Part shown: positions 57-23,176 of the stretch, piece by piece
Layout: the number at the start of each line of letters is the position of its first letter
How positions within the stretch are numbered: the stretch's first letter is position 1
Virus record (IMG/VR): IMGVR_UViG_3300042430_000588
Span: 1 to 23,768 of that record
Source of the DNA: a virus
Length of the DNA: 23,768 nucleotides
Direction: 5' to 3' (one strand)
The notes under the pieces: model-generated
The model's input: only the letters and a program-made list of their open reading frames with translations
What the model was told of the DNA's origin: nothing
Database searches by the model: none
Translations under genes and position numbers: made by a program

Positions 57-94
57 GAAGATCTGACTAGCCGGTTCCTAATAGTAAAAGTTTT

Positions 95-1800: not shown

Positions 1801-4800
1801 TTAGTATCCGACTAATTTACTTAGCTTAGTAACTTCTTCTTTAATAGAGTTAAATTTATTAATATCAGTATTTCTATCGGCAGGTGATCTGTCAATACTA
1901 CTGTTATTATCTAATAACTTTACTAAGTCTTTAAATGAATTTAAACTTAAGGTATCGTTACCATTAATTTTCTTTAGGTATTTCATAGCACCAGTTATAT
2001 TTGAAATATTAGGGTAAGAGGATTCTAATTGAACATCTCTTGATGTTTTCTCATTGCTTATTTCAAATGCACCTTTTACTTTACCTTTGTTGGGATTCTC
2101 TCTCATCTGAAATGAGGGAATAAACCCAGTACCTGACTCAGGCTTTGGTACATCCATCATAGGTTTGCCAACAATAAAGTCATCTCCAAAAGATTTTTCA
2201 TAAGCAGATACAAAGGATTCATCACGAGCAATATCTTTAGCTTCTTGTTGAGCTTTATAGTTTGAGATATCTGCTTTGGGGTTACCACCGCCGTAAGTCA
2301 TTTGAGCAATTCGGTTAGGACCAGCTGATCTTAATAAGTGCTCAAAAGTTTCTTTAACTGATCTGGGTGCTTCAGAAGCCCACCTAGATAAGTCATTATT
2401 AACACCATCAAGCTTTAGTTCTCTCTTAGCTAAGTTAGCTAGCTGTTTAAACTGGCTAACCTTAACTACTAATTGCTTATGTAACTCGGCTGCTTGTCTA
2501 ATAGAACCGTCTTTACCAATGGTGTTGGTAAACAATGCAGAAGGTTTCCAACCATACTTATTAGCTTCATCTAAAACTTCTTGCATATTTGCTTTACGTT
2601 TCTGCCATTGAGCATCAGTGTAGCCTGATAGATAGTACTGTTCATAACTACCACCGGGCTTTAGCTTGTCAAAAATTTCATCAAAGTAAGCACCCAATGC
2701 AGGGAACTCACCCATCTCACCAATACCTACATAATCATTCATAGAAGCTTTACGCATTACTGCGTCTTCAGCTCGTTTGAGATAGTCATCTAGCATCTTG
2801 GGGAACTTAGAAATATAGTCAACAGAGCTTGGGATAGCTATGTTGTTATAAGCGTTACGGTAAATTAAAGAAGATCCAGCGTTAGAGATAATAGAGTCAT
2901 GTACCCAGGCTGCAGGGTATGGTGCTTTTCTTTCACGACCTTTATTAACAAATAACGTAGTCATCTTAACTAAATCACCGTCTAAAGATTGGATAGGCAT
3001 AACAACCATAAAGCGTTGTTGAGCTGTACCAATAGCATTATCAAAGTAATCGTACTTTTGTTTATATCTGTCAAAGAAAACTTGTTGACCTTTGGTTGCA
3101 GTAGGTTTTAAACCTCTTTGAGTTTGTACAAGATTAAAATCTTGATCGCCGGAACTAATACTTTCAGTCTCATAGTTAGGGGCTCGAATAGCTACCCTGG
3201 AACCGTCTTCTAATGTATGTTCCCACACTACACCGGGATCACCTTTACTAACAACAGGTGTGACACCCGCAGGAGTAAGAATCCAATGGTCACCTGTAGG
3301 TCCGGGGACAATAACACTGGTATTAAGAATAGCAGTATACCGACCAAAACTTTTCAGAATATTAGCATAGTTACTTTGAACAACTTTTCTTAAAGTAGAT
3401 TCTAAGGCTTTAGTTAATTGTTTATTAGCAAAATTACTAGACTCAGAGCCAGTAGAGTCCATCAAGTTCCTACGTAAATCGCCGGGCAAACTATCCATAA
3501 ACTCAGTGACTTGAGCGCCAAACATACTGGCATCTTTACCGTAAGACGTTTGCATTAGAGGGGCTTTCATAAAGTCTTTTGCAACTTTAGCAAGGCCATT
3601 ATCCTTAATTAGCTTATTGAACACACTATCAAAAGCATTAGCTAACTCAGGATTGTCAGTACGCAGATCGTCTAACAAAATTTTCTTTAGCTCTTTGAAA
3701 GCATATTCACGCATGTCAGCTAACTTAGGATTAAACGTACCTAGACGATCTGCGTTTTTAAAGCTACCAAAGAAAAGAGACTGTAAAAAAATACCGTTCT
3801 GATTACCGTCATCAAAGCTGTTATGAGATAAATAAATTGTTTTACCCTTGTTTAGAGGATTAACTATTTCTGCCATATCAGCCCACAAGTTTGTGTTACC
3901 TGTAGCTTCTCCGGGTTCAATAGCCGCCATTAAACCTACAATATTATCATGCTGACCTTCAGGATTTTGTAACCAAGCTTTATATTCATTACCAACATCA
4001 GCTAGTTTACGAGCAATAGCTGGAGTATATCTTTGAATAATATCTGCAGGAGCATACTTAATAATATTAGGCTCAGGGTTAGCCGACACGGCCGTATAAT
4101 AATTAATAGTAGCATTAACCATTGTACCAATAGCAGCTAATTCTTCAGGCTTTAAAGCCAATAAAGCCGCATGCTGTTCTGGACCTGCTTTTTGAAAGAT
4201 CTTAACTGCACGAGCAATAAGCTCTTCAGATTTAGTATCATCGAGAAGCAAGTTAGTGTCTTTGATAAAATCTTTATCAGCAAAAGTAAGCATATCACGA
4301 GTACCTGTTTTGGAACCCATATAGTCTACACCAGCACTTGCCGGGAAGAATCGTTGATTTGCTAAAGCGTGTTTCCACTCACTGTAATTACTACGACCCA
4401 TTAAAGTATTAGCATTTAAAATGTCAAACTGAAGAGCTTTAATTTTAGTGTCAATAACATCTACAGCTTGTTCTACCTGAGCCTCTTTATATTTCTGTAG
4501 TGAACCGGGAACGTTAGCATCAAAGCCTTGATCTGGATCTGTGTTATCGTGTACTGCTTGATAGTCACTCTCACTTACTTTATGTCTTTTAGCGTATACA
4601 GATGTAGACCATTTGATACGACCCTTATCATCTTTAACTGCATTAGCAATAATATCATCTAACCATAACTGTTTGGCTTTAACGTTGTCTGCTAAGAAAG
4701 CAAAGTTCATAGAGCCCATGTAAGTCTTAGTTAGCTCAGCAGCATCAGTCACAATGTCTAAACCCTTAGGTGAGTTTTCAGATACTTGTGGAGTACCCTT

Positions 4801-5970
4801 AATAAAAGATGTGCCACCTGGGTTAGGAGTTCTTGAAGGAAGTCTGTAAGATAATGTTTGACTTACAGCATCTGCCAACCTTTGTAAACCTCTTGCAGCT
4901 TCCTTAGCTTTTGGATTACCAAAGAAATGGATCTTACTAGACTTAGGATCCATGTAAGGAATAATACTACCATCATTAATAGCAGAAGCAACTTGGCCTC
5001 TTGCAATAGTAGATGCCGCTTCTTTACTTAGAGGGATACCACTCTTTTGAGCGTTATCTGAAATAAAGTGATCAACACTGTCTATCAAAGTACTTAACGC
5101 ATTCATATCATCAATAGATGAACCGTTAAGAGATGTGGGTGTATAGCTAGCACTTGCTATACCATCCTGTCTAATTTGATTAAGTGACTGAGACAACGCT
5201 AAACCAGAAAGAGTGGCTAATGGTATACCATACTTTTCAATATAAGGTTGATAGCCTTCTTCGCCTTCTTGATTAACAATAGCAGCAACACCAGCGGGTA
5301 CTTTTTCACCGTTAACCTTAACAGTTGCTGTAGCCTTATCAAAGTCAAACAAGTTATCCATTGCATTGTAAGCTAATTTTTTAAAGTCAGCTTGAGATTG
5401 ATCAGCGTAAGAAGCAATATCCTCTTGGGAACTAAAACCAGAAAGCAATTTACTTTGCTCTCTGGCAGGAGTATTAATAGTAGCTCTTTCAGAAGTTAGA
5501 TTAAGAACACCTTCAATAGCCCCTTGAGTATCTAAAACACCGTTCTCTTGAATATCACCAAAAGCTTCTTGGAAGTTAGGTGCAGCAGCAAGTTGCTGAG
5601 TCTGCTCCATTTGATAATCTTCGGGAGTAAGTTGCCGATATTGCTTTTGACCCATTTCATCTACAATAGGGTTACCATTAGCATCCAACATTACTTCGGC
5701 ACCCGGTACAAATCTAGAACCAGTAGCTCTAGATACATCAGCCATAGAAGCTACAGGTGCTGTGTCTAAAGCCTCGGTTAAGCCACCACGTTTAGGTACA
5801 TCAATATTAAAAACATTAGGTACACTGTTTTGAATAGCTTGGTTAATATCTGAGGCGGGATTAGGCACCTCTGCCTGAGGTACAGTTAAGCCAACATTAC
5901 GGTTAATGTCAGCAAACCTATCTCTTAAAGATAATGGGCCTCCAGAGGAGGTACTTGAGGTAGTAGCCAT
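1801..5970 (-). CDS. Giant late protein with T7-fold single-subunit RNA polymerase motifs (candidate virion RNA polymerase)
   Basis: 1389 aa, last gene of the leftward late operon, with AAGGA eight bases before the ATG. The catalytic signature of T7-type polymerases can be read along it. A motif-A-like segment at 720-730 (DDGNQNGIFLQ) gives Asp721 for T7 D537. Motif B at 798-811 (KDFMKAPLMQTSYG) gives Lys802 and Tyr810, spaced exactly as T7 K631 and Y639. Motif C at 1022-1026 (WVHDS) gives Asp1025 for D812. Upstream, QRFFP (539-543) may be a worn-down form of the DxxGR-V-Y element. The N-terminal ~400 and C-terminal ~300 residues match nothing I know. N4 carries a T7-fold polymerase of about 3500 aa in the virion, also encoded at the end of its late genes; the position after two ejection-type giants suggests the same role here at less than half the size. 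Activity is inferred, not shown: the Arg of motif B is Lys, and the DxxGR Asp and Gly are absent. Confidence 0.72.
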   Translation of the reverse strand: MATTSSTSSGGPLSLRDRFADINRNVGLTVPQAEVPNPASDINQAIQNSVPNVFNIDVPKRGGLTEALDTAPVASMADVSRATGSRFVPGAEVMLDANGNPIVDEMGQKQYRQLTPEDYQMEQTQQLAAAPNFQEAFGDIQENGVLDTQGAIEGVLNLTSERATINTPAREQSKLLSGFSSQEDIASYADQSQADFKKLAYNAMDNLFDFDKATATVKVNGEKVPAGVAAIVNQEGEEGYQPYIEKYGIPLATLSGLALSQSLNQIRQDGIASASYTPTSLNGSSIDDMNALSTLIDSVDHFISDNAQKSGIPLSKEAASTIARGQVASAINDGSIIPYMDPKSSKIHFFGNPKAKEAARGLQRLADAVSQTLSYRLPSRTPNPGGTSFIKGTPQVSENSPKGLDIVTDAAELTKTYMGSMNFAFLADNVKAKQLWLDDIIANAVKDDKGRIKWSTSVYAKRHKVSESDYQAVHDNTDPDQGFDANVPGSLQKYKEAQVEQAVDVIDTKIKALQFDILNANTLMGRSNYSEWKHALANQRFFPASAGVDYMGSKTGTRDMLTFADKDFIKDTNLLLDDTKSEELIARAVKIFQKAGPEQHAALLALKPEELAAIGTMVNATINYYTAVSANPEPNIIKYAPADIIQRYTPAIARKLADVGNEYKAWLQNPEGQHDNIVGLMAAIEPGEATGNTNLWADMAEIVNPLNKGKTIYLSHNSFDDGNQNGIFLQSLFFGSFKNADRLGTFNPKLADMREYAFKELKKILLDDLRTDNPELANAFDSVFNKLIKDNGLAKVAKDFMKAPLMQTSYGKDASMFGAQVTEFMDSLPGDLRRNLMDSTGSESSNFANKQLTKALESTLRKVVQSNYANILKSFGRYTAILNTSVIVPGPTGDHWILTPAGVTPVVSKGDPGVVWEHTLEDGSRVAIRAPNYETESISSGDQDFNLVQTQRGLKPTATKGQQVFFDRYKQKYDYFDNAIGTAQQRFMVVMPIQSLDGDLVKMTTLFVNKGRERKAPYPAAWVHDSIISNAGSSLIYRNAYNNIAIPSSVDYISKFPKMLDDYLKRAEDAVMRKASMNDYVGIGEMGEFPALGAYFDEIFDKLKPGGSYEQYYLSGYTDAQWQKRKANMQEVLDEANKYGWKPSALFTNTIGKDGSIRQAAELHKQLVVKVSQFKQLANLAKRELKLDGVNNDLSRWASEAPRSVKETFEHLLRSAGPNRIAQMTYGGGNPKADISNYKAQQEAKDIARDESFVSAYEKSFGDDFIVGKPMMDVPKPESGTGFIPSFQMRENPNKGKVKGAFEISNEKTSRDVQLESSYPNISNITGAMKYLKKINGNDTLSLNSFKDLVKLLDNNSSIDRSPADRNTDINKFNSIKEEVTKLSKLVGY

Positions 5971-5982
5971 TGTTATTATTCC

Positions 5983-8900
5983 TTACTTAAATTTTGATGA
6001 TGCAACATCAGAGACTATAGGGAAGCTTCCTACAACAGGGGCTGCTCTTACAAGCTGCTTAACTGCTTCGGGTACTTTGTCTTGTGAAAGGTTATAGGCT
6101 GCTGAAATGGGTTTTGAAGCCCAATTAATAGCAGGAGAATTGTCTTTAGCAGTTTCTATTGACCACTTAAAAGGATCTTTAAAAGGTGAAGGTTTATTTT
6201 CAGGATACAAAGGTGATAATGTATCGACTACTCTTTCGTATTGACCTAATAAACCTGACCCATAAATATTACGTTGAATTTCTTTTTTGTAACCTTTAAT
6301 ATAAGGGTTCTTACCGTCTTCATAGGCAAGTTCATCTTTAATAGCATTACCAATCATAGAAGCTAGTATCATACCCATAACAACAGCAAAAGCTTGGTAA
6401 CGCATTCCAACGTTACCGTCTTTAATGTATTGTTTATACAAAGTAGGTAGTAATGTACTATGAGCAGTTGCCATAAAACGAGTCATTGCAGTAATTAAAC
6501 GTAAACGGGGGTCATGGTAAAACCTAGGTAAATTGTGTACTTGAGGGTTAACAACCTTACTGTCAACAAAGTTAGAGATACCTGTATAAATATTATCTAC
6601 AAACGCTTGGTAGTCAGGGTGAATATTACCTTTATCATCTATCATTTCTTTATGATTTCTTCCAAAGATATTTGAATCATTACCTGTATTATGAAGATTA
6701 TCCATAACGTACAGGGTACGATTAACATCAATACCATACTCTACTAAATCTTTAAGGTCATATGCTTGTTGCACAGTTAAACCTTTAGCAGTGTTAAATC
6801 TAGTTTCCCTTTCAACAGCTGGAATGTTTCTTAAGTTATTAAGTTTACCCATAACAGTATCAGCAGCAGCAGATAAAGCGGAGATACGAGTACTATCAGT
6901 TAAAGCTCTTAAACCAATAAGGTGAGCCATAGTGTTCATAGCCTCACGATGTCGGTGATCTGCGTATTCGTATTTAGTTTGAGTAGCATACCCAGAATCT
7001 GAATAACCTAATACATCTAACAACTTACGACCAGTAGTTCTGTATATTAAATTGTTTACTTTATCTTCAAGCTTCTTATACTCTTTAGTATTAGAAGTTT
7101 TGGGGTCTGATGTAGCTAAATTATCCATTTCTTTTTGTAAAGCTTCAAGCTCTTCATTCATTCTGAATGCCGGAGAATTTCTCATATAGGAAATACCACG
7201 GGTACTTAATGCCCAAGAAGTTCCTTTGTTAAGGTCATTACGAATTTCAGTAAACAAGTTACGCACGTTGTCATATAGTTGACCAGTGACTTTATCACCA
7301 CGAGTCCCTAAAATAGCAGCTACTGATTCGGGTAATGAACTAAAAGCAGCTTTACCCAATGAGGATAACATAGCCATAGTAGTACCCCAAGCAACTACAC
7401 CTCTATAAAGCTCATTATCAATTTCTTTATAATTACCGTTAGCAATTAAATAAAAAGCTTTTACCTGAGTAGATACATGTTTAAATTCCTCATCACTATC
7501 AAACTCACCGTTTTCTTTTGCTTTTTGTAATAGCTGAACAAGCTTTTGTCCGTCCTTACCAAAGTATTTATCGTTAGCAACTTTAGATACAGTGTGTTGT
7601 TTTAAATTTCCTAAGTTAGAAAAGAAGCTTGATTTAAATAGGTCAGCTAGTTCTGGATCTTTAATAATTCCTTTTTGTGAAAGAAAATTCTTAGCGTTTT
7701 CTACTAGAGTAGGGTTTTTACCAACAAGTTGATCAATAGTTTTATTAGCTTCCCTACGAGTAACACCTGTAAAAATTAATTTATTAATTAAGCGTTCTTT
7801 GTTTGCAACAATAATATCGGGGTCAATTTGAGAAGCTTCAAATATAGAACTTAGATTATCAAAGAAGCTATCATTAGTCATGTCACTTAAGGCTTGTCTT
7901 AAATTATCAGCATCACGAACAAAGTCATCTAATATTTTATTACCTGACCATTCATTTTTACTCCAATAATTATTGTAAGCATCTTGAATCATGGCTTCTG
8001 TTTCTAATTTACTTTTACCTAAAGCGGTAGACAAGTCATCAGCGTTAGGAAGTAAACTATTTAAAGAACCAATAGTCTTTTGTTTGTATCGAGCGTAGTG
8101 ATCCCCTGATAAAATACCATGACCACCAACAACAGCTTTTAACATAGCTCTATATGGTTTAAATTGACCTTTATCATTAAATAATTTAGGTGCAATCTGA
8201 TGAGACAGTTGACCGTTACCCATTAGCTGAGAAGGTCTTGTAATTAAACTTTTAATAGTGTCCCATGTACCTTTTGTTTCGGGTAAATCAACTGCTTTGT
8301 TTGATTTAAATGTATCATCTGTTTTAAAGTCAGTTGCTTTAGATTCATCAAACAATACATCGTCAATGCTTTTATCTAATCTAACTATTTCACCATCACG
8401 AGTAACTACTTCTTTACGCATTTCAGGCTGTTGACGGGCTAGCTGTGCTTCAGACAACATGCCCTTAAATTCTTCTTGGCTATTAGCAGCTGAATGCCAC
8501 TGCATTGCATCTAACGCAGCAAAAGAACTACCTAAAGAAACACCCATTACCTTACCACCAACAGCAGCATCTATAATATTGTTCCAAAAATCTTTTTCGT
8601 ATTGGATATCTGTATTCCATACCCCACGAGTAGCCATCATCTCAGCGTACTGTTGAGCACTCTCAGTAAATGCTTCCCCAAGACCCTTACCTTCAACAGA
8701 AGCAATACCTCTTAAAGCTGCTTCAGCAGATCTGTATTGTTGATTAGCAAATTTACTACCAAGCTCTGTTAAGGATACTAACTCTTTCTTAGTACTTTCT
8801 TCTAAAAGTTTTTTAGCTTCAGGCATAGTCATACGCTTACTAAGTTCTTTTAATGCAGCTTCTTTACCTGCCATAGTAAACAAGTTACCACCAACCATAC

Positions 8901-10146
8901 CTTCAAGACCTAGCTTGTCAAATACAGTAGCTGATAAACCTAAAGCCGATGCTAATGATGCATTCTTTTTGTCTTCAGGCTGATCAGCATAAAATTTACC
9001 AATGTACATAGGAGAAGCTAAAACAGTAGACGCAGCAAAACCAGCTACACCAGTTAACCCAGCTAAGCCTACTGCGCCACCTGTTGCAACTAATACCGCT
9101 AATTGAGGTACAGTACCTGCAATAAGGTTACCTACATAAGTAGCTGTATCTTGGATAGCACTCCAAGAATCATTAGTATTAATATCTTTATAACTAGATA
9201 AGGTTTGAGGTAATGATCTTTGTTCTGCTTTTAATTCACGAGTTTTAGCTCTAGAAATGTCTGATAAATATTCCCATTTAGTAGTGTCACCAACCATTTC
9301 ACCCATACCTGAAAACAACTTCATTAAGTCTAAAGAAGAATTCTTAATAGTTGTTGCTATTTGAGCCTTAGCCTTGTTAAGACGAGTTCTATCTGGATTC
9401 CTTACGGCAGTGCCCTCAACATAATCAGGTAACACAGAAGAAATAAACAGATCTCTTTTTTGTTCTTCTATTTGTGCCTTAAACTTTTCTTTTAAATCAG
9501 GACGAATAGAGGGGTCATTAATTAAACTTTCTAATCGGGTGATCTCATCTACAATAGCCGCCTGAGCTTTAGGGCCAACTAAGTTTTTAAAAGCAGCTAA
9601 TTCAGCTTCATCAAACGCGTTTTGTTTGGCCTCAAATAAAGACTTACCATAAGACCTTACTTCAGCTATATTCTCTTGTTTACGCTTAGCTGCTAAGTTA
9701 AGCATGGGATCCACAAAAGCTGCATCAGGGAACAAAGTACTTGCCGCAGCAGTGGACATACGATCTCGTACAACTTCTGGCGCTGTGTTATAACCCATCC
9801 GTTGTAAACCTAAAGTAACTAAAGTGTTACCTAAGTCACGGCCCTCAGGTGTTTCCTGTGTAGCTAATGTTCTACCGTAATAATCTTTACCTTCTGTTTT
9901 TAAGTTAGTAAAACCACCCATACGGGCTACAGCAGCAGCATCTTCTTCGGATGTATCTGAAAGAATAGCATCAGGAGTAAATACACCTTTACGGTCTTTA
10001 GCCGTTTCGGGTGCATTAAAGTTTTTAACACGATACTTTTCACCGTTTAATCCGGTTAAGGTATCTGCATCATATTGCTCTAAAGGTGTTTCTACGGGCT
10101 TACCGTTGATAGTTTTAATAGGGTACTTGTCGTTTAATAAGTCCAT
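5983..10146 (-). CDS. Giant internal/ejection protein with N-terminal staphylococcal-nuclease-like domain
   Basis: 1387 aa. Residues ~15-118 read as an SNase fold: DADTL (26-30), YRVKNFNAPE (38-47) and DYYGRTLA (88-95), followed by a GRDLGNTLVTLGLQ segment. Compared with Staphylococcus nuclease, Asp28, Arg39, Glu47 and Arg92 match D21, R35, E43 and R87, while Asn44 replaces D40, one of the calcium ligands. Long charged helical regions follow, then hydrophobic stretches at about 337-382, 530-547, 918-946 and 1252-1268 that could insert into membranes, as in T7 gp15/gp16-type ejection proteins. AAGGAG lies five bases before the ATG. It sits between the transglycosylase giant and the polymerase-like giant with gaps of 12-13 bases. 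Likely a virion protein that enters the host; the nuclease may act in the periplasm or on host DNA, or be only structural. Confidence 0.75.
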   Translation of the reverse strand: MDLLNDKYPIKTINGKPVETPLEQYDADTLTGLNGEKYRVKNFNAPETAKDRKGVFTPDAILSDTSEEDAAAVARMGGFTNLKTEGKDYYGRTLATQETPEGRDLGNTLVTLGLQRMGYNTAPEVVRDRMSTAAASTLFPDAAFVDPMLNLAAKRKQENIAEVRSYGKSLFEAKQNAFDEAELAAFKNLVGPKAQAAIVDEITRLESLINDPSIRPDLKEKFKAQIEEQKRDLFISSVLPDYVEGTAVRNPDRTRLNKAKAQIATTIKNSSLDLMKLFSGMGEMVGDTTKWEYLSDISRAKTRELKAEQRSLPQTLSSYKDINTNDSWSAIQDTATYVGNLIAGTVPQLAVLVATGGAVGLAGLTGVAGFAASTVLASPMYIGKFYADQPEDKKNASLASALGLSATVFDKLGLEGMVGGNLFTMAGKEAALKELSKRMTMPEAKKLLEESTKKELVSLTELGSKFANQQYRSAEAALRGIASVEGKGLGEAFTESAQQYAEMMATRGVWNTDIQYEKDFWNNIIDAAVGGKVMGVSLGSSFAALDAMQWHSAANSQEEFKGMLSEAQLARQQPEMRKEVVTRDGEIVRLDKSIDDVLFDESKATDFKTDDTFKSNKAVDLPETKGTWDTIKSLITRPSQLMGNGQLSHQIAPKLFNDKGQFKPYRAMLKAVVGGHGILSGDHYARYKQKTIGSLNSLLPNADDLSTALGKSKLETEAMIQDAYNNYWSKNEWSGNKILDDFVRDADNLRQALSDMTNDSFFDNLSSIFEASQIDPDIIVANKERLINKLIFTGVTRREANKTIDQLVGKNPTLVENAKNFLSQKGIIKDPELADLFKSSFFSNLGNLKQHTVSKVANDKYFGKDGQKLVQLLQKAKENGEFDSDEEFKHVSTQVKAFYLIANGNYKEIDNELYRGVVAWGTTMAMLSSLGKAAFSSLPESVAAILGTRGDKVTGQLYDNVRNLFTEIRNDLNKGTSWALSTRGISYMRNSPAFRMNEELEALQKEMDNLATSDPKTSNTKEYKKLEDKVNNLIYRTTGRKLLDVLGYSDSGYATQTKYEYADHRHREAMNTMAHLIGLRALTDSTRISALSAAADTVMGKLNNLRNIPAVERETRFNTAKGLTVQQAYDLKDLVEYGIDVNRTLYVMDNLHNTGNDSNIFGRNHKEMIDDKGNIHPDYQAFVDNIYTGISNFVDSKVVNPQVHNLPRFYHDPRLRLITAMTRFMATAHSTLLPTLYKQYIKDGNVGMRYQAFAVVMGMILASMIGNAIKDELAYEDGKNPYIKGYKKEIQRNIYGSGLLGQYERVVDTLSPLYPENKPSPFKDPFKWSIETAKDNSPAINWASKPISAAYNLSQDKVPEAVKQLVRAAPVVGSFPIVSDVASSKFK

Positions 10147-10159
10147 AGAGACTCCTTAT

Positions 10160-13100
10160 TTAAGGTTTTTGTTTTCCACCGTCTGCAATCCATTTAATAA
10201 ATGAAGATTCTTTAGCTCCGTAAGAGTCTTCATAGAACTTACGAATAGCTTTGTATTCAGGTGATTTCCATTTGTTAGAGTAATCTTTAATTAGTTCTGA
10301 TTTAGCTTTTACTTTAGCACCACTACTTAATTGATTGTTAACTCTGCTATCTAGTACTGAGCTTAACTGTGTTAAGTTTTCGGCTGAAGGTAATTTACCT
10401 TCTTTAGAAGCAAACAATTCACGGTTAGTTGCAGATAAAGTATATAGAGCAGAAGCTTCAATTAAGGCTGGTAATTGGTTAATGTCAGTTTTAGAATCAG
10501 CTTGATATTGGAAAGCTGTTCTTAAAATCTGATTAGCCTGTTTAGAATCCATAACTCCCATATTACGCATAGCAACAACAGCGTCTCGGCTTGACCTTTC
10601 AGCTAGAGCTTTAGCTTCAGCTTCCGAATAATTTTTACCTCTAAGTGCTCTTAACTTTTCTTGAAGAACAGGTAGGGCCATTACTGTAGCATCTTTTTCT
10701 ACATCACGGTCAATCTCTTGTTGAATCTTAAGCGGAGTAGGTCTGTAATTAGGTTTAAACCATTTACCACTGACGTCATCATACAGTTGCATATTATCAG
10801 AATCTGAACCTATAAACTTACTTTGATAAACTTTACCATTATAAAAGTGGTAGTCTTCATTTACCTTAGAAGCAGCTGGATCACGTTTAACTGCATAAGT
10901 ATTTAATTGCTGCAATAATTGAGATGTGTATTCTGCACGTTGAGCATCATTCTTTAAGGTAGGTAGTACCTCATTTAATTTTGCGCGAGCTTGATTTCTA
11001 ATGGGTTGATCAATTTCAGAATCACCAAAGGCTTTAGCTAAAGCAGAAGTATTAGACTCAAATCTTTCACGATCATTTTTAAGAGCTTCATAAGTACGAG
11101 TATCTTTAGCTTTTACATCTGCTCTTTTTTCAGCGTCTAAACGGCTGGCTTCTTGCATTGCTGCTTGGGTTAACAACGATTTATCTTGTCTTGCGTTTTG
11201 AGCATCAATAGTTTTCTGTTGTCTCTCAGCAGCAATACGCTCACGGTTTCTTGCATCAGACTGCATTAATGCGTCTCTTGAAGCATATCTCAAAGAACCA
11301 GCAGCAGAGCCACCAGTAAGCATACCGCCAGCAGCAGTAATAGCAAATCTAATTAGGTCACCTTGATTAAAAATACCTTTATCACCGTATATCTTTTCAA
11401 TTAAAGTTGCAGCTTCTTGCTGTTTAACTTCAGGAGTAGCATTAGAAGCTTTAATAGCAGTAATTAATTTGTCAAGGTTAGTGCTCTCCTGTTTGGCAAC
11501 AGTAGCAATAGCATCATTTGCTGCTTTAGGGTTTGAATCAAGCATAGAAACAGAAGAAGTTTCAAATACAGGAATTGGTGGTTGACCTTGGAATTCAGTA
11601 GGAGTGCCAACCTCTACCGCAGCAGGTTGTGATTTATCAGGATTAATTGGTGTTGGAGTAATAGTAGAACTATCACGACCAATACCTACTGACCGCTTTA
11701 AATGACCTTCAGCCCAATCAATATAATCTTGATTAGTTTTAAATTTAGCGTATACAGGGTTTTGTTTGATAATTAAATCAGCATTTCCTTTACGGGAGCT
11801 TTGATCTAAAGTTTCTCTAAAGTCACCTTGTAGATTAGATAATACTCTGGCACCATCACCTGAACCAAGACCATGCATTACGTATCTGTTAACATTAGTT
11901 AATGGAATACGTTGCTTATTTAGTACAGCTTCATTCTGTTTATTAGTATGCTCAAAAGCCATACGTTGTGCTTCATCAGTGTAAAACTCTTTAGATCCAT
12001 ACTGAACACCGGCTAACTCCGGTACTTGCTTACGGATGCTGTTCCATGTACCCTCTGTAAATTGAACTGGTCCAGATGCAGAAGATAAAGGATTCTTAGC
12101 TGTGTTTTTATTACCTGACTCTGCGCCTTTAAATAAAGTGTAAGCGTCAATAGCTTCAATATCATTAATAGGTTTATAAGTAGTTGTTTGGTTAGCAGGT
12201 ACAGCAACTACAACAGGTGCTACAGGTACATTAGCCGCTTGTAATCTTGGAGCATATTGGTCTAAAGGTACAACAGGAGCTACATTACCCATGCGATTAA
12301 AGCCGGGTACTGGTTTTGCTACAGGTGCTTTATCTTTTACTGCATCATAGGCATCTGCACGAGCATTCTGAATTCCAGGATCAGAACTTGCAACCTGTAC
12401 TGCAGGATAATCTACCTGAGGCACTTCTAAATTAACATCTAATGGCCCATAACCTGTGTCACCGTACATAGCATTAGTAGTACCATCAAAATAACCAGCA
12501 GCTTGTTGTACTTGTTGAGGAACTTCTGTAGTACCGTTGTTATAATTAGCTTGTGGTGCAGATCCACGGTTAAATGAAGGAATACCAACAGTACCGTCTA
12601 CAAATGCAGAACCGGGAACATCAGGATGTTCGTAAGCTAATGACGGTACAACCTGTGTGGTACCTTGTGAATGGTATTTGGCTTGACCGGGTGCATCTGA
12701 GTAGCGTACATCTACAGTACCATCTCTTAGTGCGTTCTTTTCACGACCTTCTTCAACCAGCTTTTTAATAATAGCTTTGTTCTTAGGGTTCTGAGCAGCT
12801 GGTTCTGGAATAACAGCCTCACCGGGTGTAAGCATAGCAGGTACAGTATCGGTACCTTGTGCGTATAGTTTCTTTTGACCCTGACCTAATACTCCAGTAT
12901 CAGCCAAAGGATTTTGAGTAGGTATACCTAATTTTTGTCTATTCATTCTAGGTGCTTTACCTAGTGGAGAACCTAACTCTTTTAACTTAGCTACATGAAG
13001 GTCTTCTTTATGACCAATACCTTGGTTAGCCTTTGCAGCAGCTTCTTTGAGCTTAATTTGATGCAGTTGTTCTTTACGTTTTTGTTCTGCTTGCATCTTA

Positions 13101-13177
13101 GCTACTTCTCTTTGTTCTTGGGATTGTAGCTTAAGATACTCGCGATGCTGCTTGGCAGACATAGATAGTGGTCCCAT
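10160..13177 (-). CDS. Internal virion protein with lytic transglycosylase-like domain
   Basis: 1005 aa. Residues ~1-65 are strongly charged with many Lys, Glu and Gln and are probably coiled coil. Residues 105-122 carry GTDTVPAMLTPGEAVIP, a motif seen in many phage tail proteins, followed by GT-containing repeats to residue 235. A lysozyme/SLT-like domain spans ~340-450: AESGNKNTAKNPLSSASG gives catalytic Glu353, then GPVQFTEGTW, a later NVNRYVMHGLGSGDG and an Ala/Leu segment. Such domains cut peptidoglycan locally during DNA ejection (compare T7 gp16). Residues ~600-1005 are mostly helical. AAGGAG precedes the ATG by five bases, the same AAGGAGTC pattern as the next giant gene. An alternative start is Met6. 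Confidence 0.82.
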   Translation of the reverse strand: MGPLSMSAKQHREYLKLQSQEQREVAKMQAEQKRKEQLHQIKLKEAAAKANQGIGHKEDLHVAKLKELGSPLGKAPRMNRQKLGIPTQNPLADTGVLGQGQKKLYAQGTDTVPAMLTPGEAVIPEPAAQNPKNKAIIKKLVEEGREKNALRDGTVDVRYSDAPGQAKYHSQGTTQVVPSLAYEHPDVPGSAFVDGTVGIPSFNRGSAPQANYNNGTTEVPQQVQQAAGYFDGTTNAMYGDTGYGPLDVNLEVPQVDYPAVQVASSDPGIQNARADAYDAVKDKAPVAKPVPGFNRMGNVAPVVPLDQYAPRLQAANVPVAPVVVAVPANQTTTYKPINDIEAIDAYTLFKGAESGNKNTAKNPLSSASGPVQFTEGTWNSIRKQVPELAGVQYGSKEFYTDEAQRMAFEHTNKQNEAVLNKQRIPLTNVNRYVMHGLGSGDGARVLSNLQGDFRETLDQSSRKGNADLIIKQNPVYAKFKTNQDYIDWAEGHLKRSVGIGRDSSTITPTPINPDKSQPAAVEVGTPTEFQGQPPIPVFETSSVSMLDSNPKAANDAIATVAKQESTNLDKLITAIKASNATPEVKQQEAATLIEKIYGDKGIFNQGDLIRFAITAAGGMLTGGSAAGSLRYASRDALMQSDARNRERIAAERQQKTIDAQNARQDKSLLTQAAMQEASRLDAEKRADVKAKDTRTYEALKNDRERFESNTSALAKAFGDSEIDQPIRNQARAKLNEVLPTLKNDAQRAEYTSQLLQQLNTYAVKRDPAASKVNEDYHFYNGKVYQSKFIGSDSDNMQLYDDVSGKWFKPNYRPTPLKIQQEIDRDVEKDATVMALPVLQEKLRALRGKNYSEAEAKALAERSSRDAVVAMRNMGVMDSKQANQILRTAFQYQADSKTDINQLPALIEASALYTLSATNRELFASKEGKLPSAENLTQLSSVLDSRVNNQLSSGAKVKAKSELIKDYSNKWKSPEYKAIRKFYEDSYGAKESSFIKWIADGGKQKP
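12473..12865 (-). repeat. Degenerate GT[T/V]x(V)P peptide repeats within the transglycosylase protein
   Basis: Six short related units lie at residues 105-235 of the 1005-aa protein: YAQGTDTVP, RDGTVDV, SQGTTQVVP, VDGTVGIP, NNGTTEVP and FDGTTNA. Their GT dipeptides are at residues 108, 153, 172, 195, 215 and 232, so the last five recur every 17-23 residues. The DNA has diverged, so the repeat is visible mainly in the protein. Confidence 0.6.
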
Positions 13178-13186
13178 AGTGACTCC

Positions 13187-13720
13187 TTAAAAAATTCCTA
13201 ATTTCTTTGCCAGTAAACCAGCACCTATTGCCCAACCTACTGGTCCCATGGCGGCTAATGCGGTTTCACCACCTAATGCGGCCCCTGCTCCGGCGGCTGT
13301 AGCCCCTGCACCACCTGCAGCTGCAGTTGTTCCTGCTGCAGTTAATGGTGCTGTAATAGAACCAACAGTTGCACCAGCACCTGTTAACGCAGCATCTTGT
13401 GCGGCAAGCATAGCTGCTTGGGATCCAGCCCCTGTTAAAGCACCGGTACCTAAGTTATAAGTAGCTGCAGCAGCTTCTGGGGCCACACCTAAGGGTGCAG
13501 CACTAGCAACTGCTTTGCCTAACTGATAACCCTTATAACCAGCTTCTAAACCTTTTGCAGTAGCATTTACAGCACCTAATGCGGCCATTTGCATTAATGG
13601 GTCATTAGGTTGTTGCATTGGTGGTGGGGTTTGTTCTTGTAAAGCTTGAATATTAGCTGACAAAGGTGCTACGGGTTTTTGTTCGTTAACCCATGACCAA
13701 GGATCGTTTTCGTTATACAT
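13187..13720 (-). CDS. Ala/Gly-rich internal virion protein, 177 aa
   Basis: The N terminus is hydrophilic (MYNENDPWSWVNEQKP) and rich in Pro and Gln to about residue 45. The rest is almost entirely Ala, Gly, Thr and Leu, ending in MGPVGWAIGAGLLAKKLGIF, a likely membrane-active helix with a basic end. This composition fits small ejection proteins such as T7 gp14, which insert into the host envelope. GGAGGA precedes the ATG by five bases, and TAATG overlaps the stop of the previous gene by one base. Sequence too low in complexity for a family call; the structural role is inferred from position. Confidence 0.7.
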   Translation of the reverse strand: MYNENDPWSWVNEQKPVAPLSANIQALQEQTPPPMQQPNDPLMQMAALGAVNATAKGLEAGYKGYQLGKAVASAAPLGVAPEAAAATYNLGTGALTGAGSQAAMLAAQDAALTGAGATVGSITAPLTAAGTTAAAGGAGATAAGAGAALGGETALAAMGPVGWAIGAGLLAKKLGIF

Positions 13721-14127
13721 TATTTTCCTCCTGATCCACCACCAGCAGAAGATGCGGCACCTGTTCCACCATCCCCACTATCTCCAGTAGCTTCACCACC
13801 TGTACCAATACCCACACCAATACTACCAATACCCATACCATCAGCACCTACCCCGTCTGCAGCAGCTACACCCGGTGAGGAAGCAGATAGACCACCGCCA
13901 GTATCACCTAAGCCGCCAGGGGATTGCATATTAATCTCTTGATTAAAACGGTCAACTACGGCGCTACTTAATGGGGGGTTGCTGCTTAAACTTGATTGTG
14001 GTAAATATGTTTTACCGTAAATAATGGGTGTACCCATAGATGTTTGTGACGGTTGTCCTGTACCTTTGTCACCACCACCTGTTTGTGCAAAGTCTGTAGG
14101 TATTGATTGTCCCGAACCTCCTGCCAT
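13720..14127 (-). CDS. Gly/Ser-rich low-complexity protein, 135 aa
   Basis: The product starts MAGGSGQSIPTDFAQTGGG, has one ordinary segment near residues 33-70 (GTPIIYGKTYLPQSSL, then VDRFNQEINMQSPGG), and is otherwise Gly, Ser, Ala and Asp. It has few charges apart from Asp, no cysteine and no transmembrane segment. Lying inside the block of small internal-protein genes and coupled to both neighbours, it is probably a minor virion component. Function unknown. Confidence 0.65.
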   Translation of the reverse strand: MAGGSGQSIPTDFAQTGGGDKGTGQPSQTSMGTPIIYGKTYLPQSSLSSNPPLSSAVVDRFNQEINMQSPGGLGDTGGGLSASSPGVAAADGVGADGMGIGSIGVGIGTGGEATGDSGDGGTGAASSAGGGSGGK

Positions 14128-14129
14128 TT

Positions 14130-14792
14130 TTATTTACCCCCTGATGTAGCTTGCTGTCTTGCAGGATTACCATAAATAGTGCTTGCATAACGCTGTAAAC
14201 CCTGCCATGTTGCGTCTAGACCTTGTTGATCAATACCACGTTGTTGGTTACCTAAGTTGGCTAACGATGAAGTAGTTTTATCTGCAACGTTAAATTGCCC
14301 GGTAGAAGCTTCGTTCATCTGCTTTTCAGCATTTATTTTATTATTAATAACTTGTTGAGCGTACTTGGCTTTGGCAGCGGAATCTGCAGCAGAAGTAGCT
14401 AAAGCATGTCTGGTAGAACCGAGTACCCCTGTAGAGCCAAATTGGTTGTTTAAATTTGCAGTAGACATTCCAATATCTAACTTAAGAGCATCTTGCAATT
14501 CATTGGCACCGCCTGTATTGGCCAGTGTGCTCATTCTCTTTTGAGTATCATCTAGGCTTTTTATAGCATTAGCGGCCCTATTTACTGTGGCATCAGATCC
14601 CATACCAAAAGCCTTTTGTTGTAATTGAGAAGCACCAGCTACTTTACCTAACTCCCCGGCAGCATAAGCAGATTCAGTTGCGTTACCTACGTTTTTAAGA
14701 TAAGGTTGTGCCCACTCAGGAATAGTAGATACTGTACCTCCACCTCCACCACTATAGTTCTTCTTAATAGAACTTCTTTTATTAAATCTCAT
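14130..14792 (-). CDS. Putative internal/structural virion protein, 220 aa
   Basis: It has a basic start (MRFNKRSSIKKNYSGGGGG), then a largely helical protein rich in Ala, Gln and Asn with few hydrophobic runs. The segment FGSTGVLGSTRHALATSAAD (residues ~119-138) resembles a GxLGSSR-type motif that I recall from T7 gp14-like and other phage internal proteins. Its start overlaps the gp13-like gene in an ATGA arrangement, with AAAGGA upstream. Together with the two following small genes it occupies the position of T7 gene 14. Assignment by context; the sequence alone is not decisive. Confidence 0.65.
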   Translation of the reverse strand: MRFNKRSSIKKNYSGGGGGTVSTIPEWAQPYLKNVGNATESAYAAGELGKVAGASQLQQKAFGMGSDATVNRAANAIKSLDDTQKRMSTLANTGGANELQDALKLDIGMSTANLNNQFGSTGVLGSTRHALATSAADSAAKAKYAQQVINNKINAEKQMNEASTGQFNVADKTTSSLANLGNQQRGIDQQGLDATWQGLQRYASTIYGNPARQQATSGGK

Positions 14793-17331: not shown

Positions 17332-18858
17332 TTACCTCCGATCTGCTGGTCTTGCGTCTAATGCAAATGTAGCCATACGCCAATAACCTGTTGAAGAAAT
17401 TCTGTAGTTAAGTACTCGACCGTTTACTCTTGGATCTACTTTATAACCTTGTGCTTTTTGATTATTAGGCAAGAAGGTAAATAAATCATTTGAAGTAAAT
17501 GTTACTGTGTCAACAAAGTTGTTTTGACCTAATACCGAGATACTTATATTAGCATCAGAAGGTACCTTATCAAACACAGGATAAATAGAGCTAATTAAAG
17601 AACTACCAGTTGTATCACCGGTATTTAATTTAAGTTTTTCAATATAAGAAGTAAAGGTAGTTAGTGCAGAACCGTTCCACATTAAATAATTAGCATCTGT
17701 CTTTAAGGTCTGTGTACTGTTAGTTGCCATGTAAATAATTTCTTTACCATATTGGAAGGCATTACTCTCATTAGCTGGTCCTGTGAAAGAGTAATTAATA
17801 TTTGGTAATACTCTTTTAGTCCATGTTTTATTTTTATAATTATAAATAAGAGCTTCATTACAAACAGTAGATGCACCTTTAGGGTAGTTAATCCATATTT
17901 CTTTATAAAAGGAATTCTTAACTAAGTGTACTTTATCAATAGCATTTTGATTTAAGTTGTTAAAGAAATATTTTTTAATTCTGAAGTCAGCTAAAGACTG
18001 AATACTACCAGAACCATTGTGAATATAAATATCATTACGATCAACAACAAAGTGATTACCATCAAACTCACATACACAATCTGTGCTTAAGATACCATAT
18101 GATTTAGAGTATGCAGCTACTCTTGTTTGCGCACCAATAGTTAATATATTAATACTATCAGAAGAATAAACAAACATGTTACCCCTGAGTTCCATCATAT
18201 CTAATACAGGTGAGGTAGAGCTTAATTCAAACTCGTCAGCTGTGTCTGTTGTTAAACCCGGTTGCCATATTGTAGGAATAGCGCCTGTAGCTGCCTGAAC
18301 GGATACTCTAATAGTTCCCGGAGCAGATGTGGTAATGCCACTTTGTACTAAGGTAAGGTTGGCTGCAACTAATGAATAATTAAGTGACCGAATAACTTTA
18401 GCTGTTACTGTTAGCCCTGCTACATAATTCCAATTAGGTAATGGTTGAAATGTGTTACCTGCTACAGGATCGTTATATAAACAATATAGTGGAGTTGATT
18501 TACTGTTATTTAGGATAACAGCATAACCACCGTTAAAATAAGTACCTTGCCAATCACTGTTAGTATAACCAGCACCTGAACCACTAAACATGGTAGACTG
18601 GTTACCCGCCGAATCTACTCGGATAATACTACCATCTTGTGCAAAGATATTATAACCTTGATCTGGTCGTCTCCAGTGAATACCGTATGTAGGTGTAATA
18701 GATAATACTCTGGAAGTTGTCTCACCTGTTATAGTCTGTACTGCGTTGTCGTCAAACCGTACATTGAGAACATCTGTAAAAGTATTCATAGGTACGATCA
18801 TTGGTGGCAAATCAGTGTTTAATCCACCTTCTCCAAGACCTTGTATTTGTTCTGCCAT
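17332..18858 (-). CDS. Tail tube/hub protein, beta-propeller-like (T7 gp12 / P22 gp10 analogue)
   Basis: 508 aa from the ATG at 18858. The frame stays open two codons further to a TTG, but AGGAG at 18867-18871 is eight bases from this ATG. The product is rich in beta strands, with repeated short hydrophobic/aromatic segments (FDGNHFVVDRNDIYIH, FYKEIWINYP, ALIYNYKNKTWTKR) recalling the blades of podovirus tail hub and nozzle proteins. The start (GGLNTDLPP, then LNVRFDDNAVQTITGE) is typical of these proteins. It is the first gene of the tail/ejection group after the gap at 18859-19064. Family assignment by pattern and position only. Confidence 0.68.
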   Translation of the reverse strand: MAEQIQGLGEGGLNTDLPPMIVPMNTFTDVLNVRFDDNAVQTITGETTSRVLSITPTYGIHWRRPDQGYNIFAQDGSIIRVDSAGNQSTMFSGSGAGYTNSDWQGTYFNGGYAVILNNSKSTPLYCLYNDPVAGNTFQPLPNWNYVAGLTVTAKVIRSLNYSLVAANLTLVQSGITTSAPGTIRVSVQAATGAIPTIWQPGLTTDTADEFELSSTSPVLDMMELRGNMFVYSSDSINILTIGAQTRVAAYSKSYGILSTDCVCEFDGNHFVVDRNDIYIHNGSGSIQSLADFRIKKYFFNNLNQNAIDKVHLVKNSFYKEIWINYPKGASTVCNEALIYNYKNKTWTKRVLPNINYSFTGPANESNAFQYGKEIIYMATNSTQTLKTDANYLMWNGSALTTFTSYIEKLKLNTGDTTGSSLISSIYPVFDKVPSDANISISVLGQNNFVDTVTFTSNDLFTFLPNNQKAQGYKVDPRVNGRVLNYRISSTGYWRMATFALDARPADRR

Positions 18859-19013
18859 GTACAATTCTCCTCTTTAAATTTTTCTTTAATAAATACCCTT
18901 ACCAATTGACCAACAATATTATCTACTGTAAATTGTACAATAGGAATTTCAATATTATGTTTCTCACAGATCTTACGGAATTCAATAATGTTAGACCCGT
19001 TATTAATATCATT
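18819..19013 (-). pseudogene. Possible gene remnant: open frame without a start codon
   Basis: On the - strand 64 codons stay open with protein-like composition (segments NIIEFRKICEKHNIEIPIVQ and VDNIVGQLVRVFIKEKF). A TGA closes the frame upstream and no ATG or GTG lies near its beginning. Its last ~12 codons overlap the tail-tube gene out of frame. Immediately upstream a second frame reads AKEHNIE, resembling EKHNIE in the main frame, which suggests a frameshift or duplication. I do not recognise the family; chance coding-like sequence in AT-rich DNA is possible. Confidence 0.3.
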
Positions 19014-19039
19014 TCAATGTTATGTTCTTTTGCTTAATC

Positions 19040-19068
19040 CTAATAGGTACCGCCTAAGCGATAGTTAA
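19040..19068 (-). promoter_or_regulatory. Candidate sigma70-type promoter for the tail/ejection operon
   Basis: Read on the - strand, TTAACT (19063-19068) and TATTAG (19040-19045) match the -35 and -10 consensus at four of six positions each and are exactly 17 bases apart. The stretch from here to the tail-tube gene is the only sizeable non-coding gap in the leftward genes. It would let tail and ejection genes be expressed apart from the lysis genes. A phage-specific promoter is equally possible. Confidence 0.35.
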
Positions 19069-19990: not shown

Positions 19991-20194
19991 TTATTTATTC
20001 TTATTTGTAACATCTTTATAAATAGAATATAATTTATGACCAATCATTAATATTGTATAAATTAAAGTAGTCCAAAGAAGTATTTCGGATACTTGGTAAC
20101 CAGCAACTGTTGCTAGTGAAACAGTTACGGGTGCAGCAGACTTAGTTACCATACCCATACCAGTTTCAGTTGTTTGTTGTAGAGTTGTCGACAC
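19991..20194 (-). CDS. Holin, 67 aa
   Basis: A small protein starting at GTG (20192-20194) with AAGGA eight bases upstream. A weak hydrophobic stretch at about 19-33 (SAAPVTVSLATVAGY) and a clear transmembrane segment at about 37-54 (EILLWTTLIYTILMIGHK) are followed by a basic tail (KDVTNKNK). This fits small class II-type phage holins (compare T7 gp17.5), which form the lesion that releases or activates the endolysin. Position directly before the lysozyme and spanins supports the call. It marks the left edge of the GC-rich fibre cassette. Confidence 0.82.
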   Translation of the reverse strand: MSTTLQQTTETGMGMVTKSAAPVTVSLATVAGYQVSEILLWTTLIYTILMIGHKLYSIYKDVTNKNK

Positions 20195-20216
20195 GGTATT
20201 TTTTCCTTATATTAGT

Positions 20217-20603
20217 TTAGTTAGACCAAGACAATGTATCTTCGTCCCAATCATAGTGTGGCGGGTTGTTCGGCACTGGCATCGGCACGGGCGCTTCCCA
20301 CAGATACGAAAAACTGTTCAACACCCATGAAGGATAAGGTTTTGGAGGAACAAATCCTGCACCCTCTGGACCATCGGGCAGCCATGTAAAACCAATCCCA
20401 GCAAAGTTCTTGCGGAATGCTTTGGACTGATCCGGGTCAGGCGTGTTGGTGTTGGGGATGTAGTAGATACCACCCCGTGTGTTGTAGCTAGTCTGCACAA
20501 AGCTGGCTGGATCGCCCCAGATGCCCGTGTCAATTTCAGCTTGGTCAATGACCAGCACACGCTGGACAATATTGTTTTCATCAATTTGGGCAAACTGGCT
20601 CAT
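20217..20603 (-). CDS. Tail-fibre-associated protein, 128 aa
   Basis: It starts MSQFAQIDENNIVQRVLVID and carries IYYIPNTNTPDPDQSKAFRK, FAGIGFTWLP, FVPPKPYPSWVLN, LWEAPVPMP and a final YDWDEDTLSW. This chain of motifs is one I recall from small proteins next to fibre genes in many aquatic phages; its function is not established. The start overlaps the stop of the glycine-rich protein (ATGA), so the two are coupled and may work as tip protein and partner. It is distinctly richer in GC than the holin gene that follows only 22 bases later. Confidence 0.7.
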   Translation of the reverse strand: MSQFAQIDENNIVQRVLVIDQAEIDTGIWGDPASFVQTSYNTRGGIYYIPNTNTPDPDQSKAFRKNFAGIGFTWLPDGPEGAGFVPPKPYPSWVLNSFSYLWEAPVPMPVPNNPPHYDWDEDTLSWSN

Positions 20604-21406
20604 GCTGTGTACGTCCCAGAAGATGTGAAAGTGTGGATGGTAAACCCACCAGATGACGTGACTGTGCCCCCAGTACCCCGCTGAGCACCTGCGTAGCGGA
20701 TGATCACAATGCCGGAGCCACCGTTTGCACCAGCCGTACCACTGCCATCGAGATTGGCCCCGCCGCCGCCACCAGTATTTTCAGAGCCGCTGGTAGCATT
20801 CGTGCTGCCACCATTGCCGCCACCACCAGCGCCACCAGACCCACCCCCATACTGACCGGAGCCGCCGCCACCGCCAGCACGGGTTACAGACGATCCGTTA
20901 ATGCTTGAAGCACTGCCAGAGCCACCATTCCCGCCAAAATTAACGCCTGCTGTACCGCCAGATGCACCTGCACCACCGCCACCTCCGCCAGCAAAGCCGC
21001 CAGTGGTTCCTCCTCCAGCATTACCCTGCCCAGATGTGCCTGCGGCACCGGCCCAACCATATGTACTGCCGCCGCCGCCAGAGCCACCTGTTGCCGCAGA
21101 ACCCGGAACGTAACCAGAAGCACCCTTTCCCCCGCCAGTAGATGTGATTGAACTAAATACTGAATTTGATCCAGAAGTGCCTTCTGCATAACCTCCGCCC
21201 GCTCCGCCACTGCCAACGGTTGCGGTGTATGCAGTCCCGGGGGTCAAAGTAAATCCTGTTGCAGTGCGATAGCCGCCTGCGCCACCGCCACCCCCATAGT
21301 TGGAGCCACCCGATCCCCCGCCAGCGACAACCAGATACTCGATGTCGTAGGTTGGCGGGATAAAGGACCGCTGGTTCTGAAACACCGCTTGAAGTGCGCC
21401 GCTCAT
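20600..21406 (-). CDS. Glycine-rich tail adhesin, 268 aa
   Basis: The start at 21406 is chosen because it overlaps the previous stop as ATGA and GGGAG lies nine bases upstream; a longer form from 21433 is possible. A short N-terminal part (MSGALQAVFQNQRSF, then IEYLVVAGGGSGG) leads into about 200 residues dominated by Gly, with repeated GGGG and GGSGS segments split by short Ser/Thr/Ala/Tyr pieces, ending GIVIIRYAG and FTIHTFTSSGTYTA. The design resembles glycine-rich adhesins of T-even-type phages (gp38 of S16), where glycine-rich strands pack as polyglycine-II helices and exposed loops bind receptors. Strongly GC-rich. Host-range determinant by inference. Confidence 0.8.
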   Translation of the reverse strand: MSGALQAVFQNQRSFIPPTYDIEYLVVAGGGSGGSNYGGGGGAGGYRTATGFTLTPGTAYTATVGSGGAGGGYAEGTSGSNSVFSSITSTGGGKGASGYVPGSAATGGSGGGGSTYGWAGAAGTSGQGNAGGGTTGGFAGGGGGGAGASGGTAGVNFGGNGGSGSASSINGSSVTRAGGGGGSGQYGGGSGGAGGGGNGGSTNATSGSENTGGGGGANLDGSGTAGANGGSGIVIIRYAGAQRGTGGTVTSSGGFTIHTFTSSGTYTA

Positions 21407-22780: not shown

Positions 22781-23163
22781 AGTACGGTGCTTTCAGGTAT
22801 TGGTAAATATCCAGCCGCTACCGGGTCAGCCACTTCGATCATTTGCAGCTTCATCTCTGGCATTGCCACCACCAGCGGCGCGTGGGTCAGAATACCGGTA
22901 AGCGGTTCCGAACCAAACATTTGATCCGCTATCTTGCGGCCGTGGTCGCCAATGTTGGCGTATAATGAGTTGTAGTCCAACCACCACAGCCCATCCGTGG
23001 TGGTGTGTTCTTTCCAAATGCCCAGGTCAAATGGCGCGGTGGTGTATTCGGGATCATTGGCTAGCCATTGCAAGCGTGACCACGTGTTAATTTGCTCAAG
23101 CATAATTACCTTGAGATGTCCGGATAGTGGTTTTGTAGGACAAAGAAATTGTAGTATTTTCAT
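22777..23163 (-). CDS. Hypothetical protein in fibre cassette, 128 aa
   Basis: The start at 23163 is chosen because AAAGGA lies close upstream; the frame remains open further and a longer product from 23220 is possible but would overlap the LamG gene. The product begins MKILQFLCPTKPLSG, contains Trp-rich segments (NTWSRLQWL, DGLWWLDYNSLY) and ends with Ala/Pro/Val-rich sequence. No signal peptide, membrane helix or catalytic motif is clear. It is ATGA-coupled to the NlpC/P60-like gene, so the two may function together. Family not recognised. Confidence 0.65.
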   Translation of the reverse strand: MKILQFLCPTKPLSGHLKVIMLEQINTWSRLQWLANDPEYTTAPFDLGIWKEHTTTDGLWWLDYNSLYANIGDHGRKIADQMFGSEPLTGILTHAPLVVAMPEMKLQMIEVADPVAAGYLPIPESTVL

Positions 23164-23176
23164 GATTTTTTTTCCT

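Follow-up and report, generated by a model that had tools for sequence, protein, structure and literature searches.

Does a podophage outside the N4 family bring its own RNA polymerase into the host cell, and in the company of which other proteins? The question is raised by a 23,768-base IMG/VR virus record, analysed at its full length and called here the window, in which the initial annotation read three giant consecutive genes as a three-part ejection set of a wall hydrolase, a nuclease and a polymerase. According to a study of 2025, only the N4 family has the giant encapsidated RNA polymerase (PMC12633501), although claims of N4-like polymerases outside this family do exist. If the reading is true, there would be a second, N4-like route of polymerase entry outside the N4 family.

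Arrangement and conservation of the three genes

The three tightly spaced ORFs were recovered at the annotated positions and lie on the minus strand (Table 1), separated by gaps of 13 and 12 bases. They are transcribed in the order protein 1 (1005 aa), protein 2 (1387 aa), protein 3 (1389 aa) and close a tight operon, which starts with a virion structural protein (17332-18864; PHROG 3287, E=5.5e-55) and continues through a gene for a tail-fibre-like protein and a number of small genes. Convergent with the trio lies a plus-strand gene for a DNA-binding/Dps-like protein (1047-1499; PHROG 3636, E=3e-25).

Table 1. Features of the window, with strand and the evidence behind each call.
Feature	Position	Strand	Evidence
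Second promoter-like copy TAGCCGGTTCCTAATAGT, ahead of tRNA and plus-strand genes	68..85	+	motif search
Single-subunit RNA polymerase, putative virion type (1389 aa)	1801..5970	-	ORF, fold, motifs, zero Cys
Polymerase core, residues 372-1225	2296..4857	-	alignment, VIA-align
Ejection protein candidate 2 (1387 aa): SNase domain, hydrophobic segments, long helical body	5983..10146	-	ORF, profile, model, zero Cys
Hydrophobic segment 2, residues 1251-1270	6337..6396	-	19-residue Kyte-Doolittle >1.5
Hydrophobic segment 1, residues 341-377	9016..9126	-	19-residue Kyte-Doolittle >1.5
Staphylococcal-nuclease-like domain, residues 20-125; D26, D28, T29, R39, E47, R92 invariant	9772..10089	-	alignment, profile
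Ejection protein candidate 1 (1005 aa)	10160..13177	-	ORF, PHROG 4067, family alignment, zero Cys
Lytic-transglycosylase (SLT-type) cassette, residues 345-505, E353 in FKGAESGNK	11663..12145	-	PHROG 4067 E=1.3e-14, motif
Most conserved part of protein 1, residues 105-140 around TDTVPAMLTPGEAVIPEPAAQNPKNKAIIKKLVEEG	12758..12865	-	family alignment, CRP-7 gp36
Small cysteine-free protein (177 aa), Ala/Gly-rich hydrophobic C-terminus	13187..13720	-	composition, operon position
Small cysteine-free Gly/Ser-rich protein (135 aa), same operon	13720..14127	-	composition
Conserved cysteine-free protein (220 aa), CRP-7 gp37 homologue	14130..14792	-	homology
T7-type promoter-like element TAGGCGGTACCTATTAGG, ahead of tail/ejection operon	19039..19056	-	motif search

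The trio is a real unit, as had been proposed. Among 57 distinct IMG/VR contigs with relatives of protein 2 or protein 3, it is contiguous and in the same order in 43 and cut by the contig end in 13; the remaining contig, L086, has a very divergent polymerase. The third protein of L086 is linked to the family only by a maximum-sensitivity search (1.7e-9, against the one sequence) and retains the motifs DGKTNG, KKTTMVFGYG and YDA.

The same order is found in an isolate, Roseobacter phage CRP-7; of 50,697 phage records, no other isolate was found to carry the polymerase. It is a short-tailed, non-N4-like roseophage, seen as a podovirus by electron microscopy (PMC6918029). Its direct homologues gp33, gp34 and gp35/gp36, as well as gp37, the homologue of the 220-aa protein, are annotated as hypothetical. 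CRP-7 and the window also have tRNA-Arg(TCT) in common, whereas in CRP-7 protein 1 is split into two genes (gp35 and gp36), the hydrolase is of another type and the motif B lysine of the polymerase is an arginine. The tRNA-Arg(TCT) of the window is one of two plus-strand tRNA-like genes (101-160 and 336-410), the first of which was found by Rfam and missed by ARAGORN. A group I intron (Rfam RF00028, E=8.7e-20) was observed at L001 26987-27197 (minus strand), between the ribonucleotide reductase pieces gp44 and gp46 of CRP-7; the CRP-7 record has no intron feature at this gene.

Protein 3 has the predicted fold of a single-subunit RNA polymerase

The RNAP-like call on protein 3 holds by its predicted fold and catalytic residues, without any sequence-level database match. 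As a single sequence, protein 3 gave nothing useful except CRP-7 against Pfam, PHROGs, PDB sequences and phage genomes; its profile had no significant profile-profile match to the second RNAP family of these genomes, and hhalign of the family against the single N4 gp50 sequence returned a probability of 1.3%, while the fold is shared by VIA-align. The identity is settled only by predicted structure. The AlphaFold2 model of residues 130-1262 (pLDDT 82, pTM 0.80) had only single-subunit RNA polymerases as top Foldseek matches: yeast mitochondrial RNAP (6.6e-14), T7 RNAP (3.2e-12) and N4 mini-vRNAP (3.3e-10). Against predicted viral proteins, Foldseek led to DNA-directed RNA polymerases and N4-type virion polymerases. 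With VIA-align 2 the model was superposed on T7 RNAP with Z=25.3 (rmsd 4.7, 528 aligned residues) and on N4 mini-vRNAP with Z=19.0 over 754 residues. A DNA polymerase A identity was also considered, on four weak matches of family members (best 0.0019), and was rejected, being outranked by RNA polymerases in both Foldseek and VIA-align. The model thus identifies protein 3 as a predicted single-subunit RNA polymerase of the T7/mitochondrial/N4 type. Complete members of the family range from 1161 aa (the divergent L086) to 1498 aa.

The core motifs of such polymerases can be located in protein 3: R558, motif A with D721 (DDGNQNG), motif B with K802 and, eight residues on, Y810 (KAPLMQTSYG) and motif C with H1024-D1025 (HDS). 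The corresponding N4 polymerase motifs, as read from its sequence, are ADGVTNG, KNPLTITIYG and TRVGR. In an alignment of 27 sequences, built with IMG/VR relatives and reaching down to 15% identity, 18 positions are invariant, among them R558, D721, Y810, D997 and D1025. We take R558 to be the arginine of the TxxGR/DxxGR element and D997 the aspartate of the HSQDG-like element of the T7 and N4 polymerases; D721, Y810 and D1025 correspond to their motif A aspartate, motif B tyrosine and motif C aspartate. The motif B lysine K802 is not invariant. It is kept in the subgroup of the window, along with HDS/HDA; in the CRP-7 subgroup it is replaced by arginine and the motif A glycine by alanine, and in L089 the lysine is replaced by glycine. 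Because of these replacements, polymerase activity appears less sure in the CRP-7 subgroup and in L089.

One would argue from the same replacements that protein 3 descends from a polymerase and is now a purely structural ejection protein like T7 gp16, which no longer transcribes; T7 itself copes with a non-polymerase gp16 and the host RNAP (PMC8954989, PMC12633501). However, a structural role leaves unexplained why both catalytic aspartates, the motif B tyrosine and the arginine are invariant in all 27 sequences, and the subgroup of the window retains the lysine and HDS/HDA as well. Thus we regard a purely structural protein 3 as unlikely.

Protein 2 combines a nuclease domain with hydrophobic segments

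The SNase-like call on protein 2 was borne out at the level of the family. A profile built from 17 sequences matched solved thermonucleases, including 4k14, with E=1.3e-7; PF00565 was matched by one family member (0.0019) and not by the window protein as a single sequence. In 26 sequences only 21 positions are invariant over 1,200 aligned residues, and six of these are the nuclease-domain residues given in Table 1, the catalytic ones included. We take D28, R39, E47 and R92 to be equivalent to the catalytic D21, R35, E43 and R87 of SNase. The position of SNase D40, the second Ca ligand, is occupied by N44 in the window and by aspartate in CRP-7 and some relatives. Judging from these residues, SNase-type nuclease activity of protein 2 is likely but not certain, the latter because the D40 equivalent is asparagine in the window. 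The simplest guess for the target of such a nuclease is host DNA.

The hydrophobic segments that had been noticed in protein 2 are both present by the criterion used (Table 1). The rest of the protein body is predicted to consist of long helices, with modest confidence (model pLDDT 66), and had no reliable match among structures; a T7 core protein came up at E=0.33, which is not significant.

Protein 1 carries an exchangeable wall hydrolase

In the window, the transglycosylase-like call on protein 1 is well founded: the PHROG 4067 'transglycosylase' family matches residues 348-583, and the protein has both the domain match and the catalytic-type glutamate (in the ESG motif) of SLT lytic transglycosylases. 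The family alignment reveals a conserved N-terminus with the TDTVPAMLTPGEAVIP motif, a variable middle and a conserved glycine-rich C-terminal region; the most conserved part has 56% identity in CRP-7 gp36. The middle is where the relatives differ. It holds other endolysin or transglycosylase types in L003, L017, L022 and L047, the hydrolase of CRP-7 gp35 is a pesticin-type lysozyme, and L088 and L090 have the SLT domain at the N-terminus instead. In protein 1 of L005, L007, L012 and L019 a hydrolase was looked for and none was recognisable. The transglycosylase as a fixed part of the trio was therefore rejected, as the hydrolase differs or goes unrecognised in relatives; by comparison of the sequences, it is a swappable cassette. 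The wall hydrolase thus stands as a member of the set in the window, and some relatives are seemingly without one. Since the hydrolase type varies among relatives, wall opening is probably a common function that is served by exchangeable enzymes.

A second polymerase and promoter-like elements

The same genomes encode a second, ordinary T7-like RNA polymerase, whose gene was found in 47 contigs; it lies past the trio at a distance of 0.5-5.6 kb and is encoded on the other strand. In CRP-7 this is gp30 (PF00940 at E=7e-57), which closes the plus-strand module near 15 kb.

Elements resembling T7-type promoters accompany these genes. The TAGNCGGTACCTAATAGG form has two sites in the window (Table 1), against 0.08 expected by chance, and relatives have elements akin to it on both strands. 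The CRP-7 form TATAGTCCNYTATTAAAAGGR was sought in the window and nothing close to it was found; the window carries the TAGNCGGTACCTAATAGG form. The promoter-like elements took the forms TAGNCGGTACCTAATAGG, TCCCCTAATAGGGA and, in CRP-7, TATAGTCCNYTATTAAAAGGR. Early promoters of the N4 virion RNAP are hairpins with a 3-nt loop; some of the elements here have short inverted repeats, but their resemblance is to promoters of the T7 type. The CRP-7 genome (MK613349) contains exactly five copies of the 21-base TATAGTCCNYTATTAAAAGGR, one with a single mismatch, at 2025, 7146 and 14763 on the plus strand (these three in L093) and at 38281 and 57231 on the minus strand. All five lie in or at intergenic gaps in sense orientation, one of them just before gp30. 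Given this position of gp30, behind such an element at the end of its module, another polymerase has to be active earlier. An entering polymerase would suit this role, but the host RNAP could also fill it.

Absence of cysteine, the location of the proteins and the extent of the set

There is not a single cysteine in the 3,781 residues of the three window proteins, whereas the rate in other ORFs of the related loci, 11.7 per 1000 residues, would predict about 44. Family-wide, cysteines per 1000 residues amount to 0.19 in the polymerase (protein 3), 0.03 in the SNase protein (protein 2) and 0.52 in protein 1, whereas the second, T7-like RNAP of these genomes reaches 15.4. Cysteine content thereby separates the two polymerases of one genome sharply: in CRP-7, one has zero cysteines and the other fourteen. 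T7 gp15 and gp16 and N4 gp50, gp51 and gp52 are likewise free of cysteine (95% of the gp50 sequence covered). Some tail, scaffold and capsid proteins are also low in cysteine (CRP-7 gp51 and gp56; the N4 capsid). The idea that cysteine absence is a mark of ejection alone was therefore softened: it seems to mark virion proteins in general, and supports virion association more than ejection itself.

These data bear on where the proteins reside. The operon of the trio also encodes a tail-fibre-like protein and a virion structural protein, so that the products of the trio could belong to an outer tail or adsorption apparatus and never be ejected. Yet it is hard to see what a polymerase and a nuclease would do outside the cell, and the absence of cysteine is as in the internal proteins of T7 and N4; we consider an outer-tail location very improbable. 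Single-subunit RNA polymerases are usually non-virion enzymes, and one could also suppose that protein 3 is a late-expressed intracellular enzyme that is never packaged and sits at the end of a structural operon fortuitously. Against this speak its near-zero cysteine content, unlike that of the second RNAP, its fixed place beside two other giant cysteine-free proteins, and its position, which matches that of the polymerase in the N4-type ejection operon. An unpackaged polymerase is thus improbable too, marginally more so than the purely structural protein 3 discussed above.

We find it quite probable that these three genes make up the distal portion of an operon for podophage ejection, and that its last protein is an entering polymerase. 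Ejection is the best reading because the operon is late and lies beside tail genes, the proteins are cysteine-free like those of T7 and N4, and a separate non-virion polymerase is present. The three parts that were originally proposed keep their enzyme identities, but the set itself is probably of five or six genes, not three, because the three small neighbours directly upstream (13187-14792) are cysteine-free and two relatives of the 220-aa protein weakly match a 'DNA ejection protein' family (PHROG 4287, E 0.005 and 0.04). The 177-aa protein may possibly be a part of the pore.

Proposed course of ejection and comparison with known systems

By analogy with T7 and N4, the trio proteins would be stored inside the head and pass out through the short tail, either before the DNA or together with it. 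The small proteins would form an outer-membrane pore (PMC8954989, PMC10925440, PMC12633501). Protein 1 would open the peptidoglycan with its hydrolase cassette and probably form part of a periplasmic conduit, protein 2 would span or anchor in the inner membrane, bringing the SNase-type nuclease, and protein 3 would enter the cytoplasm and transcribe the first phage genes, leading directly or indirectly to expression of the second, non-virion T7-like polymerase gene. For N4 and DEV it has been proposed that transcription pulls the DNA in; here both the order of action and any such pulling are inferences. Among the observations against the ejection reading are that the nuclease would sit near the phage's own DNA, for which the reading has no explanation, and that protein 1 of some relatives is without a recognisable hydrolase. 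In its most general form, the proposal is that podophages outside Schitoviridae eject their own single-subunit RNAP of about 1,200-1,500 aa along with a SNase-type nuclease that is active and a wall hydrolase that can be exchanged, while also encoding a second T7-like polymerase. A complete ejectosome, able to start transcription and to cut DNA, would thus be in the cell ahead of all phage gene expression. We hold this as a whole to have an even chance of being correct.

The initial annotation saw in the set a union of two ideas, the ejection channel of T7 and the ejected polymerase of N4. These ideas are not separate: a three-gene ejection operon with a virion polymerase is already known in N4-type phages, as in DEV (PMC10925440). 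The phages of this type (Schitoviridae; gp50-gp52 of N4, gp71-gp73 of DEV) resemble the set proposed for the window in having three neighbouring ejection genes, a single-subunit virion RNAP and membrane-active partners. In N4, moreover, the vRNAP gene is the last in transcription order on the N4 map, the ejection proteins are cysteine-free and the genome has a second phage RNAP. The N4 vRNAP, however, is a chain of about 3,500 aa in which large domains flank the polymerase on its N- and C-terminal sides, whereas the window polymerase, at 1389 aa, is no giant chain of that kind. The N4 ejection proteins appear to be without a wall hydrolase (PMC12633501), in contrast to the cassette of the window, and the SNase domain of the window is not described for N4.

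T7 gp14/gp15/gp16 are similarly a late three-gene ejection set with a wall transglycosylase in one member and cysteine-free gp15 and gp16, but T7 ejects neither polymerase nor nuclease, and its third protein carries the transglycosylase N-terminally. Gp96 of Thermus phage P23-45 is a tape measure with a virion RNAP, which transcribes the gene of a second RNAP (PMC10770324). It delivers a wall peptidase, membrane segments and virion RNAP together, but as one 5,002-aa chain, in a long-tailed phage and with a two-barrel RNAP of the cellular type. In polyvalent phage proteins an N4-like RNAP is joined to lysozyme/transglycosylase and RNase domains (PMC5512222); these are single giant fusions with metallopeptidase domains, and SNase is absent from the text of that paper. 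What appears new here is the compact polymerase, the SNase domain and the exchangeable hydrolase cassette in a separate gene, in a lineage that lies outside Schitoviridae and is itself undescribed.

A widespread group of aquatic phages, with CRP-7 as a cultured member, would thus have a polymerase that shares the fold of the N4 enzyme but is compact and is encoded in a set of three ejection genes. With 1,389 residues this polymerase is far easier to handle than the 3,500 of N4, and the threading of a polymerase and the drawing in of DNA would become directly testable. The polymerase pair of CRP-7 offers an internal control for the demands that tail entry makes on a protein.

Beyond the operon, the stretch 20000-23768 of the window has a GC content of 0.43-0.59, compared with about 0.30-0.42 in the adjoining stretches, and encodes Gly-rich and fibre-like genes. 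The jump in GC content could stem from a chimeric assembly or mean that an adhesion module has been acquired.
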